Made by a program: the position numbers and the translations under genes. The notes beneath the pieces were generated by a model. That model worked only from the letters and a program-made list of their open reading frames with translations, searched no databases and was not told the DNA's origin. Positions 33,152-39,781 of a DNA stretch of 64,000 nucleotides are shown here, piece by piece (position 1 is the first letter of the stretch; every line of letters starts with the position of its first letter). Source of the stretch: a virus; the IMG/VR virus record IMGVR_UViG_3300022937_000009, positions 1 through 64,000 of that record; one strand, given 5' to 3'.

Positions 33152-33179
33152 AAAAGAGGACTTCGGTCCTCTTTTTTTT
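33152..33179. terminator. Bidirectional intrinsic terminator
   Basis: AAAGAGGAC, a TTCG tetraloop and GTCCTCTTT, with As on the left and eight Ts on the right. It works for the rightward peroxiredoxin gene and the leftward tape-measure gene, whose stop codon lies in its right edge. Confidence 0.9.
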
Positions 33180-35052
33180 AAACTAAACCAGGTATTGCAA
33201 TAAATCCTGGTCCGCCATTACTTCCACCGCCATATCCTAGTGCGTAAGAAGTTACGTTACTTGCACTAGTCTTACTCATACTTGTATTATTGAATACGTT
33301 TGTTCCACCTTGAGTATAATAATTATTCATAATAGGATTACCACCGGCTCCACTTGCCAATGAATCCATTTGTTCAGCTAAAGCGTCTTGGCTTTGTTTT
33401 TGAATTTCATTATATTCTGCTAATTGTCTATTATATTCATCAATAGCAGCTTGTTGTCTTTGTATTTCTTCAAGTCTTCTGTCAATAACATTTTGAGATG
33501 CTTCTCTTTGAGATTGTAAAAGATCTCTTTCTTCTTTCGCGTCTTCAATCATGCGATCTAAACGACCTTCACCGACTGTAAATGATCTACCATCAGTACC
33601 TACATTAAACATTCCATTTGCTGCACCCGCGGCTTTTATAGCTTCAAGTCTTTCAATTTCAGAATTCATACCATTGAATTCCTCTGCGGTATCTCTAAGG
33701 AACTGATTAGCTACATCATTAGTTGCTGTTAAAGCATCAATAACTTGTTGCGCGGTTGTTTCTTCTGTGAATTCACCTTGATTTCTTATAGCTTGTTCAA
33801 CTGTATTAGGTAATGTATCAATACCTCTATCACCCCAATCTCTCCAGGCCTCACCGGCTTTAGTAGCAATAGAAGAACCAAATCCCCAGATTGCTCCTGA
33901 TATTGCACCAGGTAAAGCACCTACACCTGCAAATAATGAACCTGTACCAGCTCCAACTGCAGTACTTATTGTTGTATCAACTAAAACATCACCGGCTTGA
34001 TCTAATAAACCACCTCTATCTGCTTGCGCTAAAAGTTCTGCTTCTAATGCATCTGCACTAAGATTCTCTTCATCAAATAAACCTAATACAGCTGCAGCTG
34101 TTAAACCACCACCAAGAAAACCTGCACCTTTTGCAAGCCCTCCTGGACCTCGCAATCTTGAAGCTTGTCTAGCTAAGAAGCCCGGTCTTTTATTTGCTGC
34201 AGCGTCCTCACCTGCTATTCTCAATGCAGTATCTCTAGCGGCACCGGTTAATCTTTGTCCCGTTTTATTACTAATAGGATTACCATCAGCATCTAATGTA
34301 AAGTTTCTTGGAGCAGTAGGAACTCCTCTCGGTGGAGTTGGCGGAACACCTGGATTAACTGTTGGTACACGCGGGCGGCCAGCCAACCGGCCGGGTATGG
34401 AACCTAAAAATCTTCCTGCTGCCAATGCTGCCGTCGCAGCAACCATTGCACCTCTAAACGCTAAAGCCGCAACACCTACACCTGCAATTATTTTTAAAGC
34501 ATTTCCAACTGCATCCCAATCTGTATTTTTAAGAAAAGTTGCAAAGTTTTTAGCTCCTGTTGCAATATCTGGTAACTCTAATCCAAATTTTTCATTTAGA
34601 TATCCAACAGCAAAATTGTATAAGAATGGTGCACCTACTAATAGAATTTTACCGATCATACTAAACATTTTTCCAAACCAACTAAATAATCCATCCATTT
34701 TTTTATAAATGAAATTATCTTGTCTCTTTCGTGCTTGTCGGTCTTTTTCTTGTTTGACTAAATCTTGATTTCTAAGCTCTTGTTCACGCTGAGCCATTTG
34801 CGCTTCTTTATCATAAAAGGCTTGTCGTTCTTTTTCAGACATTGCTCTTAATTTAGCATCTTGTTTTGCTAATTCAGATTGCCCTTTAGCTACATCTTTT
34901 AAACCATCAAAGCTTTTATTAAGTTCTGTAAAAACACTGTTAAACTTACCTAATTCGACTTTTACTTCTTTAATAGAATTAGTTCCACTATTACGCAGCA
35001 GATCGCCTTCCGCTTTCAGTCGTTCTATAATAGCTTCTGTTTCTGGTGACAT
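33178..35052 (-). CDS. 29: Tail tape-measure protein (gp29-like)
   Basis: 624 residues (T4 gp29 has 590). N-terminal coiled coil (to about 125, with KEVKVELGKFNSVF and Glu/Lys/Gln-rich helices), hydrophobic helices at about 135-160 and 190-215 (IIAGVGVAALAFRG), Ala/Gly-rich middle, a second coiled coil, and a Gly/Asn-rich end. This is the usual tape-measure layout; the identification rests on that and on the two chaperone-like genes just upstream. Its length sets tail length in myoviruses. Confidence 0.65.
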   Translation of the reverse strand: MSPETEAIIERLKAEGDLLRNSGTNSIKEVKVELGKFNSVFTELNKSFDGLKDVAKGQSELAKQDAKLRAMSEKERQAFYDKEAQMAQREQELRNQDLVKQEKDRQARKRQDNFIYKKMDGLFSWFGKMFSMIGKILLVGAPFLYNFAVGYLNEKFGLELPDIATGAKNFATFLKNTDWDAVGNALKIIAGVGVAALAFRGAMVAATAALAAGRFLGSIPGRLAGRPRVPTVNPGVPPTPPRGVPTAPRNFTLDADGNPISNKTGQRLTGAARDTALRIAGEDAAANKRPGFLARQASRLRGPGGLAKGAGFLGGGLTAAAVLGLFDEENLSADALEAELLAQADRGGLLDQAGDVLVDTTISTAVGAGTGSLFAGVGALPGAISGAIWGFGSSIATKAGEAWRDWGDRGIDTLPNTVEQAIRNQGEFTEETTAQQVIDALTATNDVANQFLRDTAEEFNGMNSEIERLEAIKAAGAANGMFNVGTDGRSFTVGEGRLDRMIEDAKEERDLLQSQREASQNVIDRRLEEIQRQQAAIDEYNRQLAEYNEIQKQSQDALAEQMDSLASGAGGNPIMNNYYTQGGTNVFNNTSMSKTSASNVTSYALGYGGGSNGGPGFIAIPGLV

Positions 35053-35059
35053 TTTTTAT

Positions 35060-35236
35060 TTAACCTTTGTTTTTAGCCTTGTCATTTTGTTCTTGTATCC
35101 AGTTAACCAACATTTCAAAATACAAATCTCTTTCGTAAGGAATTAACCTTTCTATTTCGTCTATACTGTATTTATGATGCTGGGCCAAGCTGAAAATAAT
35201 TTGATAATAATTTTCAAGTCTCAAATGGACCAGCAT
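35060..35236 (-). CDS. Small tail-assembly ORF, frameshift partner of gene 26 (gp51-like position)
   Basis: 58 residues. ATG at 35236 overlaps the gene 26 stop (TAATG), so it can start itself; it is also in the -1 frame after the T7 run at 35242-35248. Helical and acidic, ending in NWIQEQNDKAKNKG, with YYQIIFSLAQHHKYSIDEIERLIPYERDLYFEML, a pattern like the T-part of lambda G/GT-type chaperones. It lies seven bases before the tape-measure gene. By position it corresponds to T4 gene 51, but is much shorter. Confidence 0.7.
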   Translation of the reverse strand: MLVHLRLENYYQIIFSLAQHHKYSIDEIERLIPYERDLYFEMLVNWIQEQNDKAKNKG

Positions 35237-35937
35237 TATGTAAAAAAACTTCGCATCCCCTCGATAACAAATGTTTTTTTATCACCATTTTTATTTGTGT
35301 ATGGCATTTCATGTCGTAGTCTTGGCATTGTTTCAAAGAATTTTTGAATTCCATGAATTACCTCACCACTTAAATCATCCATAAACTCGTCAATTTGTTC
35401 TTGGTTGTAATCTTTAAAATAGTGTACTTCATCTTCTGAAGCTACATAATCTAAACAAGTACATAACATTAAATAATTTGTTAATGGATCTGTTTCATCC
35501 ATTTGAGCCATTTTAACGTATTCATCAATAGTTGGATACTTTAAAGCTAATCTATAAGTATCATTAATAACTACATCACGTTCATGACCTTCCGGTCTTG
35601 TTAAACTCACATTATCAATATCTAAATTTAATGTTACTTCTTCACCTGTATCTGAATCTTTAATATTAAATTCAATTATGTTATTTACTGACCGAGCTCT
35701 TAGTATAAGCAAAATATATTCTAAATCAAACATTGCAAGAGTTGAAATATCTGTTTCAAGTAAACAGTTATTTACTACTTGTTTTGCCGCAAGAATTTCT
35801 TGTGCAGGATCTTCTGATGATTGACCTACAAGAAGAATTTTTTCTTCCTTAACCGTAAACGGTCTATATTTTACTTTTTTACCAGTAGATGGAAGTTCAA
35901 TTTCCATAATTGGCAAATCAATTTTTGGCAACGCCAT
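35236..35937 (-). CDS. 26: Baseplate hub/tail-assembly protein gp26-like
   Basis: 233 residues (T4 gp26 has 208). The family pattern is visible in KVKYRPFTVKEEKILL, the middle YLMLCTCLDYV and the end KKFFETMPRLRHEMPY with NGDKKTFVIEGM. T4 gp26 acts in hub assembly with the tape measure. The last codons are AGT TTT TTT ACA TAA, a perfect slippery heptamer just before the stop. A -1 shift would make a 292-residue product with the downstream ORF. Confidence 0.75.
   Translation of the reverse strand: MALPKIDLPIMEIELPSTGKKVKYRPFTVKEEKILLVGQSSEDPAQEILAAKQVVNNCLLETDISTLAMFDLEYILLILRARSVNNIIEFNIKDSDTGEEVTLNLDIDNVSLTRPEGHERDVVINDTYRLALKYPTIDEYVKMAQMDETDPLTNYLMLCTCLDYVASEDEVHYFKDYNQEQIDEFMDDLSGEVIHGIQKFFETMPRLRHEMPYTNKNGDKKTFVIEGMRSFFT
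35242..35248 (-). promoter_or_regulatory. T_TTT_TTT -1 frameshift site
   Basis: Seven Ts on the minus strand placed as X_XXY_YYZ in the gene 26 frame, two codons before its stop. After slippage the ribosome reads TAC ATA and enters the 58-residue ORF in frame. The same arrangement produces the lambda tape-measure chaperone GT. Confidence 0.65.
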
Positions 35938-35974: not shown

Positions 35975-36745
35975 TTATCCACCCAATCTTTCATACGAAT
36001 TACGAATTCTGCTTAATCTATTAATTGCATCTTGAATACTGGTTGGTCTACCCTGATCTGCAGTTTGTTTTAATACGTCTACTAATCCGGCTAAATTTGA
36101 TAATGTTTCTAAAATCCCACCATTACTTCTTCTTGATGGTATACCAGTTTTATCACCACTATAACGTATTCTATCATATGCAAATGTTACTGGCATAGTT
36201 AAATAAGAATCAGTATTTTGCCAGTTTAAGTCTAAGTCTCCAACAGCGTATGGAAAACAATTTTCAAGTATTACTTCATAATATTTAGTACCAGTACTTT
36301 CTACTGAATAATGTCTTATATTCATTGTACAAGCATAATCATCTTTATAACCTAATTCAAATGGCATTTGGCCAATATCTAAATCTCCATCAATTGCTGA
36401 AAATGAGTTTCCTGAACTACTATAATTCAATACTCTTTGAATCCAGTTATGGAAAAATTGTAAAACTTGATGATCTGAATCTACCATGAATGTAGCATTA
36501 ATAGGTTGACTAGACATTTCTAAGGGAAACTGTGTTGTGAGTTGTGCTACTGCACTGAATTGACCTGTTTCAATATTAATACCAGGAAAATTAACACCTG
36601 AACAAAAGAAAGAAAAATCTCTTTCAGTAATACCTGACGATGTTTCTACTTTAAAAACTGGTATTCTTACTTCAAATAACGATGAACGACCTGGACCACC
36701 AAATTTATCCAAAGTTGTTTTAAAGCGACTAATATTAAACGACAT
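35975..36745 (-). CDS. 54: Baseplate tail-tube initiator (gp54-like)
   Basis: 256 residues (T4 gp54 has 320). A tail-tube-family protein: RSSLFEVRIPVF, CSGVNFPGINIETGQ, TQFPLEMSSQPINATFMVDSD, QFFHNWIQRV, and YEVILENCFPYAVGDLDLNW. The C-terminal 50 residues are a helical extension. In T4 gp54 primes tube polymerisation on the baseplate. It starts five bases after the gp2-like gene. Confidence 0.6.
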   Translation of the reverse strand: MSFNISRFKTTLDKFGGPGRSSLFEVRIPVFKVETSSGITERDFSFFCSGVNFPGINIETGQFSAVAQLTTQFPLEMSSQPINATFMVDSDHQVLQFFHNWIQRVLNYSSSGNSFSAIDGDLDIGQMPFELGYKDDYACTMNIRHYSVESTGTKYYEVILENCFPYAVGDLDLNWQNTDSYLTMPVTFAYDRIRYSGDKTGIPSRRSNGGILETLSNLAGLVDVLKQTADQGRPTSIQDAINRLSRIRNSYERLGG

Positions 36746-37997: not shown

Positions 37998-39143
37998 ATG
38001 TCTAACAATATGCCAGAAATAGTGCGCTTCAGGCGCTCCAATGATTCAAGGATAACAACCTTTTCGTTTCCTAGTAAACCATTGCCTCATGGATTTCAAA
38101 TGATTTTCCAAGATTATTCTTATGAAAAATTTGCAGCTTCTACTACAGCTTTAGGTACCACTACTACAAATAATGATGATGGTTCAACAACAAGTACAAC
38201 ACGATTTCAATCTAATAGAAATCTTGGACTAGTACCAGAAAGAAATTCTGTAACAAATAGCAATACAGGCTCAATTGAACTTCCATTTCCTAGAACTTTA
38301 AGAGATAATACGGGTACACAAGTTACTGCATTTGAAAGAGATTTCGTTGTTGAAAGAATAACTGCGGGCCTTGCTGGAGCAACAGGTGGTCAAGATATTG
38401 GCCAAGCAATGAAAAATATTGGTGAAATGGCAAGTCAAGCATTGAGTAGTGCGCTCGCGGCTGGTACAAACGCTGCACAAAATGGAATTGGTAATGCTTT
38501 TGCTGGTGCTATTTCTGATGCAATGAATGTTGACACTGGTAAAGCAATGGCTATTGGTTCATATCTTGCACGAAAATATTTAAGTGGAGATCTTGCAAAA
38601 ACTGCAGGTGCTGTTACTGGTCGTGTTGTTAATCCTCAACAAACATTAGCATTTGAAGGCGTTAACTTAAGAGAGTATTCTTTTGAATGGGATTTATTTC
38701 CAGCAAATAAAGCAGATACTGATCAAATTACAAATATTGTAAACTTCTTAAAATCTAAAATGTTACCACGAACTGAAGGAATTGGAGGAGTTCAAGGATT
38801 AGATAAAGCATTTTTAAAATATCCTTCTGTTGTTGAATGTAGCTTATTAGGTGTGCAAGAAAAACACTTCATGAGATTTAAAAGATGTATGATTGATAAT
38901 GTAACAGTAGATTATACTGGCGGTGGTGCTAAAGTAGGAATTATTAAAGGTGGTGTACCAGCTTCTATTACGCTTAGTATATCATTTAAAGAACTTTCTA
39001 TTCAAACTGCAGATGATTATGAACAATTATTGCCTTCTGGAGTTACAACAGCGTCAGCTGAAACTCCAAATGAAAGTGATTTTCAAGAAGTAGGTAACCC
39101 AGTACGACCAGCAACTACTTCAACAGGAACAGGAAACCCATAA
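37998..39143 (+). CDS. 48: Baseplate tail-tube cap gp48
   Basis: 381 residues (T4 gp48 has 364). VNPQQTLAFEGVNLREYSFEWDLFPANKADTDQITNIVNFLKSKMLP is the gp48 signature, followed by PSVVECSLLG and SITLSISFKELSI. The middle (about 120-220) is Gly/Ala-rich and hydrophobic. It sits on the hub and starts tube assembly with gp54. The stop overlaps gene 53 (ATAATG). Confidence 0.85.
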   Translation: MSNNMPEIVRFRRSNDSRITTFSFPSKPLPHGFQMIFQDYSYEKFAASTTALGTTTTNNDDGSTTSTTRFQSNRNLGLVPERNSVTNSNTGSIELPFPRTLRDNTGTQVTAFERDFVVERITAGLAGATGGQDIGQAMKNIGEMASQALSSALAAGTNAAQNGIGNAFAGAISDAMNVDTGKAMAIGSYLARKYLSGDLAKTAGAVTGRVVNPQQTLAFEGVNLREYSFEWDLFPANKADTDQITNIVNFLKSKMLPRTEGIGGVQGLDKAFLKYPSVVECSLLGVQEKHFMRFKRCMIDNVTVDYTGGGAKVGIIKGGVPASITLSISFKELSIQTADDYEQLLPSGVTTASAETPNESDFQEVGNPVRPATTSTGTGNP

Positions 39144-39517
39144 TGAAATACTTCGAAAAATTTCCAATAATTAATTATCAAGGTCGAAGAGTACGTGATA
39201 TTACTCGTCGAACAGCCTTTAAAAGAGCAATTGCAAATAATCCTTATGTGTATTATCCTTATACTGTAAAAGAAGGTGAGCGCGCTGAAGATGTCGCAAG
39301 ATTCTATTATGGTTCTGTTGATTATGTTTGGTTAGTTTATATGGCAAATAACATTGTTGATCCTTATCATGAATGGCCAATGGATCCTCAAACATTTAAT
39401 GATTACCTTGTAGAAAAATACACAGAATTATCTGGAGAGGTTGGCGAGGATGTTATTGATTGGTTAAGAGATCCTGATAATGATGAAAATATTATTTACT
39501 ACGTAAGGCAGGTATAA
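39143..39517 (+). CDS. 53: Baseplate wedge gp53
   Basis: 124 residues (T4 gp53 has 196). Starts YFEKFPIINYQGRRVRDIT and continues YYPYTVKEGERAEDVARFYYGSVDYVWLVYMANNIVDPYHEWPM, the LysM-like gp53 pattern. It links the wedge to the hub. Confidence 0.88.
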   Translation: MKYFEKFPIINYQGRRVRDITRRTAFKRAIANNPYVYYPYTVKEGERAEDVARFYYGSVDYVWLVYMANNIVDPYHEWPMDPQTFNDYLVEKYTELSGEVGEDVIDWLRDPDNDENIIYYVRQV

Positions 39518-39520
39518 CAG

Positions 39521-39781
39521 ATGGCAGCAGTAGACGAAATTATTTTAGCACCTGAATCGTTTAGAACGATTTATTTACGTAGAGAAGACCGTGTTATTAT
39601 GCGTACAGAACAAGGTCGTAAAATTATTATTAAACGTATTATTCCTGAAGAATGGAAACCTTATAGGTTATTTGATTATGAAAACGCATTAAACGAAAAC
39701 AAAAAAGAAATTTTCTTATTCGATAACAGATACACAAGTCAAATAACTAAAGAATTTGTTGCTAATATTAGCGCTGAATAA
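39521..39781 (+). CDS. Small protein between gp53 and gp27-like genes
   Basis: 86 residues, basic and beta-rich at the start (TIYLRREDRVIMRTEQGRKIIIKRI) with a charged end. No family recognised. Tight packing (three bases after 53, five before the next gene) places it in baseplate assembly. Confidence 0.6.
   Translation: MAAVDEIILAPESFRTIYLRREDRVIMRTEQGRKIIIKRIIPEEWKPYRLFDYENALNENKKEIFLFDNRYTSQITKEFVANISAE

Follow-up and report, generated by a model that had tools for sequence, protein, structure and literature searches.

The locus examined here raises the question of what is made from the 3′ end of a T4-type gene 26, and by which route. In the window, i.e., the whole stretch of DNA analysed (64,000 nucleotides, positions 1 to 64,000 of the IMG/VR virus record IMGVR_UViG_3300022937_000009), a homologue of this gene ends in a run of seven Ts and overlaps a small open reading frame (ORF), which the initial annotation interpreted as a -1 slippery site joining the two. 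The products of genes 26 and 51 have been named as the tail assembly chaperones (TACs) of T4-like phages (Vladimirov, Gautam & Davidson 2022, Virology 566:9-15). Later papers credit the same work with describing, in TAC-N genes of this phage type, poly-T -1 frameshift signals (PMC12846349) and with the finding that some T4-like phages carry a short gene and a longer, fused one (PRFect, PMC10885494), and a 2016 review describes G-T frameshifting as widely conserved except in T4 (PMC5009743). The main idea, a T4-like tail chaperone made by frameshifting, is thus already published. The features of the locus are:

35975-36745, minus strand: tail tube protein, the gene immediately preceding gp26 (PF23849, E=7.1e-11; PHROG_45, E=2.4e-39)
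35236-35937, minus strand: gp26 homologue, putative short tail assembly chaperone form (TAC-N), 233 aa (PF12322 T4_baseplate, E=3.3e-55; PHROG_150 baseplate hub, E=1e-62)
35257-35262, minus strand: Shine-Dalgarno (SD)-like element GAGGGG, a tentative stimulator located 8 nt before the heptamer
35242-35248, minus strand: zero-frame slippery heptamer T_TTT_TTT, followed by one codon and then the gp26 stop (sequence, conservation and codon statistics)
35236-35238, minus strand: zero-frame stop TAA of gp26, overlapping the ATG of the -1 frame (TAATG)
35060-35242, minus strand: -1 frame extension (TAC-C, gp51-like), Y-I followed by the 58-codon ORF (PHROG_634 baseplate hub assembly catalyst, E=3.5e-22)
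35060-35236, minus strand: the 58-codon gp51-like ORF proper (from sequence)
35177-35236, minus strand: predicted stimulatory hairpin, with closing stem arms at 35226-35236 and 35177-35187, 5 nt past the heptamer
33178-35052, minus strand: probable tape measure protein, 624 aa, starting 7 nt past the gp51 stop (from position and size)

Read along the minus strand, the gp26 homologue ends ATG CGA AGT TTT TTT ACA TAA TG, its last codons being those first reported (AGT TTT TTT ACA TAA). The seven Ts (35242-35248) form T_TTT_TTT in the zero frame, which fits X_XXY_YYZ as had been proposed, and they lie inside the ORF overlap. A -1 shift at this point reads TAC ATA ATG CTG GTC and enters the 58-codon ORF; the proposed product of 292 residues (232 + 2 + 58), as against 233 for the unshifted one, was reproduced from the sequence. 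The extension aligns with the C-terminus of T4 gp51 (hhalign, E=2.4e-5).

We investigated whether this arrangement is kept in relatives, a check suggested in the initial annotation. Of 80 IMG/VR relatives of the window's gp26 gene (58-100% identity), 79 reach the junction, and in all 79 the zero-frame end has the form NNN TTT TTY, one codon, stop, with gp51 in the -1 frame. A wider set, built from scans with the gp26 proteins of S-PM2, phiM12, Mosig and Ah1 (the last, from Aeromonas, contributing only three loci) together with named phages, comprised 324 loci with a detectable gp51, and gp51 was in the -1 frame in every one (324/324). Four loci without a gp51 match were left out of this count: Stenotrophomonas phage Marzo, Vibrio phage D503, a Klebsiella phage and a short contig (L319). 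By eye, gp26 of phage Marzo also ends with GAT TTT TTC.

One could suppose that the T run is an accident, i.e., that an AT-rich gene happens to end in Ts beside an unrelated small ORF, given the high AT content of marine phage DNA and the more frequent use of TTT than TTC for Phe. However, an in-frame T_TTT_TTN was found within the overlap at 266 of 268 non-redundant junctions (the exceptions being L009, with G_TTT_TTT, and the Kuttervirus locus L091, with ATTTTC), compared with 10 in-frame T_TTT_TTY among 63,637 codon positions elsewhere in the same gp26 genes, and gp51 is a conserved protein family. Chance, to which we would give practically no weight, is refuted by this conservation. The pattern within the heptamer is also more specific than the encoded amino acids demand: the codon ahead of the T run ends in T at 266 of 267 junctions (152 expected), TTT serves as the first Phe codon at all 267 (198 expected given the codon usage of the individual genes), and the Z position varies freely (TTC 188, TTT 78, TTA 1). 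The heptamer is therefore conserved beyond amino-acid constraint, with the third-position Ts kept and Z varying, as X_XXY_YYZ predicts, while synonymous sites vary; the -1 frameshift first read from the window alone is in this respect borne out by its relatives, in both heptamer and frame relation. Furthermore, since the -1 frame opens no more than 3 nt from the heptamer at 40 of the 267 junctions, the heptamer is essentially the only place where a shift could occur in these cases.

The sole TTA case belongs to Pseudoalteromonas phage vB_Psh_XG4 (L086), where T_TTT_TTA at the gp26 end is identical to the HIV-1 slippery sequence. In a Mosig-like group that includes L084 (22 of 267 junctions), gp26 runs eight codons beyond the heptamer to its stop, and the short form would thus have an added tail.

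The same data bear on transcriptional slippage, by which some mRNAs would gain or lose a base on the T run. The window has a homopolymer of seven Ts on which this could act; most relatives, however, have six only (T_TTT_TTC at 188 of 267 junctions), and what is kept among them is codon phase and X_XXY_YYZ pairing, not run length. The 2016 review describes transcriptional slippage at A or T runs that are about nine long (PMC5009743). Given also the selection on downstream RNA structure described below, we consider this route highly improbable.

Alternatively, translational coupling could yield the 58-residue gp51 as a protein of its own, through reinitiation at TAATG and with no frameshift. The window does have TAATG, as the initial annotation pointed out in allowing for independent initiation, and some other groups (e.g., Vibrio phage D503) have TAATG and lack T_TTT_TTN. 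We searched the 268 non-redundant junctions for start codons in a stretch that begins with the overlap and extends 30 nt beyond the stop. No ATG for gp51 was found in this range at 163 junctions, and none of ATG, GTG and TTG at 109, yet heptamer and -1 frame are kept at these junctions. Independent initiation of gp51 is thus ruled out for much of the family, although in the window itself reinitiation could take place. T4, moreover, has the fused form as a gene of its own, and reinitiation leaves the constraint on both poly-T and hairpin unexplained. We judge it very improbable as the general route; fusion by frameshifting is the only explanation common to the whole family. At two loci, the Kuttervirus L091 (near 3676) and Vibrio phage D503 (L088, near 3669), the -1 frame still holds a gp51-like ORF and the junction has only TTTTC (ATT TTC and CTT TTC, respectively) in place of a canonical heptamer, with TAATG present in D503; reinitiation or a weaker slip on a single codon may operate at these two.

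To assess RNA structure, we compared the 70 nt downstream of the heptamer with dinucleotide shuffles. The mean z-score over 126 junctions was -2.2 (-0.34 for control stretches), and that of the window -3.1. Downstream RNA was also predicted to be more stable than synonymous versions of itself in four groups (mean -20.5 vs. -12.7, -14.4 vs. -10.0, -13.5 vs. -10.1 and -12.4 vs. -8.5 kcal/mol). A stem of 11 pairs that begins 5 nt past the heptamer is, within the window's group, paired in 92% of cells with 35 double changes, and its covariation score was reached by no shuffle. Slid versions of the stem pair in 20-54%, and the observed number of pairs (537 of 583) compares with at most 524 in 1000 permutations of same-amino-acid codons among the sequences; relatedness may inflate such pair counts, and the codon-permutation and slid controls agree. 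Compensatory changes include CTGTGC/GCACAG, CTGAGC/GCTCAG and CTAATGC/GCATTAG, in which changes between Cys, Ser and Met on one arm are matched on the other arm by changes that are mostly synonymous within an Ala codon.

RNAalifold found no single consensus hairpin when the cyanophage and other groups were combined, and hairpins were therefore examined sequence by sequence. Other clades have different predicted hairpins, which start about 4 to 10 nt past the heptamer in 117 of 147 sequences, and the per-sequence hairpin score was 13.3, compared with 9.6 for codon-shuffled sequences. We take these results as strong evidence that a predicted hairpin 5-7 nt downstream is conserved beyond protein coding and would form part of the signal. 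Covarying, clade-specific hairpins may be a new detail; the passages of related literature considered here make no mention of them, although they could have been described elsewhere.

Evidence for an upstream element is suggestive only. The GAGGGG of the window has a predicted anti-SD binding energy of -8.0 kcal/mol (-4.5 for synonymous versions), assuming an anti-SD that may differ from that of the host, and the family mean is -6.5 (-5.0 for synonymous versions, -2.3 for control windows). Part of this stronger binding arises because a conserved Glu-Gly is encoded there.

Taking together the heptamer, the frame relation, the domain identities, the gene order and the selection on the RNA signal, all of which can be read from sequence, we consider it very probable that a real, conserved, programmed -1 frameshift at the 3′ end of gene 26 yields a short and a long chaperone. 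Most ribosomes would stop at TAA and release the 233-residue short chaperone (TAC-N), while a minority, aided by the hairpin 5-7 nt downstream and perhaps by the SD-like GAGGGG 8 nt ahead of the heptamer, would slip back one base on T_TTT_TTT and produce the 292-residue fusion (TAC-NC), which carries the gp51 domain at its end. If these proteins act like lambda gpG and gpGT, copies of the short form would cover the product of the neighbouring tape measure gene, and the less abundant long form would bring in tail tube subunits. According to the 2016 review (PMC5009743), U_UUU_UUU is less shift-prone than A_AAA_AAG in E. coli. The efficiency of frameshifting in the window may thus be low. The tail chaperone frameshift of lambda itself works at a low level.

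The layout resembles the E. coli dnaX cassette, which likewise combines an upstream SD-like element, a heptamer with a 6-7 base homopolymer and a stem-loop a few nt downstream; unlike the window, dnaX uses A_AAA_AAG, shifts with about 50% efficiency and yields a shorter product by doing so. On balance we favour a model in which a dnaX-like cassette (SD-like element, T_TTT_TTY and hairpin) drives the frameshift, the heptamer being near-fixed and the hairpin clade-specific at similar spacing, such that the ratio of short to long form would be tuned by fast-changing RNA structure, with T4-type phages having escaped this dependence via two genes. A related case is that of Pseudomonas phage Adele and the Vandenendeviridae, for which passages of PMC12846349 describe a C-terminal part in the -1 frame and an invariant GTTTTT near the TAC-N end. 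These are, however, other phage families, the signal was predicted by alignment, and those passages mention no stimulatory structure.

How does T4 fit into this scheme? The abstract of the 2022 study reportedly describes frameshifting as conserved in several T4-like groups, with T4 itself using genes 26 and 51. T4 gp51 (249 aa) matches PHROG_150 over residues 3-248 (E=2.6e-84) as well as PHROG_634 (E=1.2e-23), and in hhalign comparisons it aligns with both the gp26-like and the gp51 domains. Judged by these profiles, T4 gp51 is a fused long form, consisting of a gp26-like domain followed by a C-terminal gp51 domain. The view that T4 uses separate genes 26 and 51 thus stands as regards the number of genes, but the counterpart of T4 gp51 is the whole fusion and not the 58-residue ORF. 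T4 and Klebsiella phage pzk-kv4 each have a pair of adjacent, divergent PF12322 genes, whereas only one was found in S-PM2, phiM12, Mosig, C48C1, Ah1 and three large IMG/VR records of the window's group; the window's own record (101,436 bases) also has one only, the gp26 homologue. The long chaperone would thus come either from a frameshift or from a second, fused gene: T4 and the window share homologous domains and the same predicted short and long products, with two separate genes and no frameshift in T4.

With regard to phage lambda, gene order and frameshift logic at the window locus are the same as for gpG/gpGT, and the initial annotation was right to connect gp26/gp51 with that scheme, a link that is nevertheless already in print. 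The gene families are those of the T4-like gp26/gp51 chaperones of the 2022 study. The slippery heptamer of lambda, G_GGA_AAG, differs from that of the window, and neither window domain has detectable sequence similarity or significant fold similarity to its lambda counterpart. Specifically, neither the lambda T domain nor any solved structure was recovered as a fold match for the 58-residue part; for gp26 and the gp51 domain alike, Foldseek against solved structures and profile searches against the PDB returned chance-level hits only. The gp26 model matched no solved chaperone significantly (HK97 2ob9 at E=2.4).

The gene order (tail tube, gp26, gp51, 624-aa protein) places the last of these where a tape measure would be expected. 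The protein of the window has no direct tape-measure match in Pfam or PHROG, and its family has no match to T4 gp29 in profile comparison; its relatives match tape-measure families weakly (PHROG_167, E=5.7e-9; PHROG_305, E=1.8e-5). From position and these weak matches, it is most likely the tape measure. Among the relatives, seven loci (L017, L034, L035, L043, L083, L084 and L092) have 267-437 nt between gp51 and the long downstream ORF, which is room for a small gene, and the tape measure is thus not always adjacent.

With these observations the G/GT scheme would extend to the T4-like phages that abound in the sea, among them cyanophages, SAR11 phages and uncultured relatives. In such marine genomes gp51 is usually annotated as a gene of its own, when most probably it forms the end part of a fusion. 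The two states, one gene with a frameshift and two genes without, would give a clear case of a recoding signal and gene copies replacing one another, and the turnover of hairpins between clades around a near-invariant heptamer offers a testable system for protein ratios set by RNA.

Elsewhere in the window, 37998-39143 encodes a gp48/gp54-like cap, a small baseplate gene, and gp53 is apparently split, with 39143-39517 and 39521-39781 matching different parts of PHROG_232.
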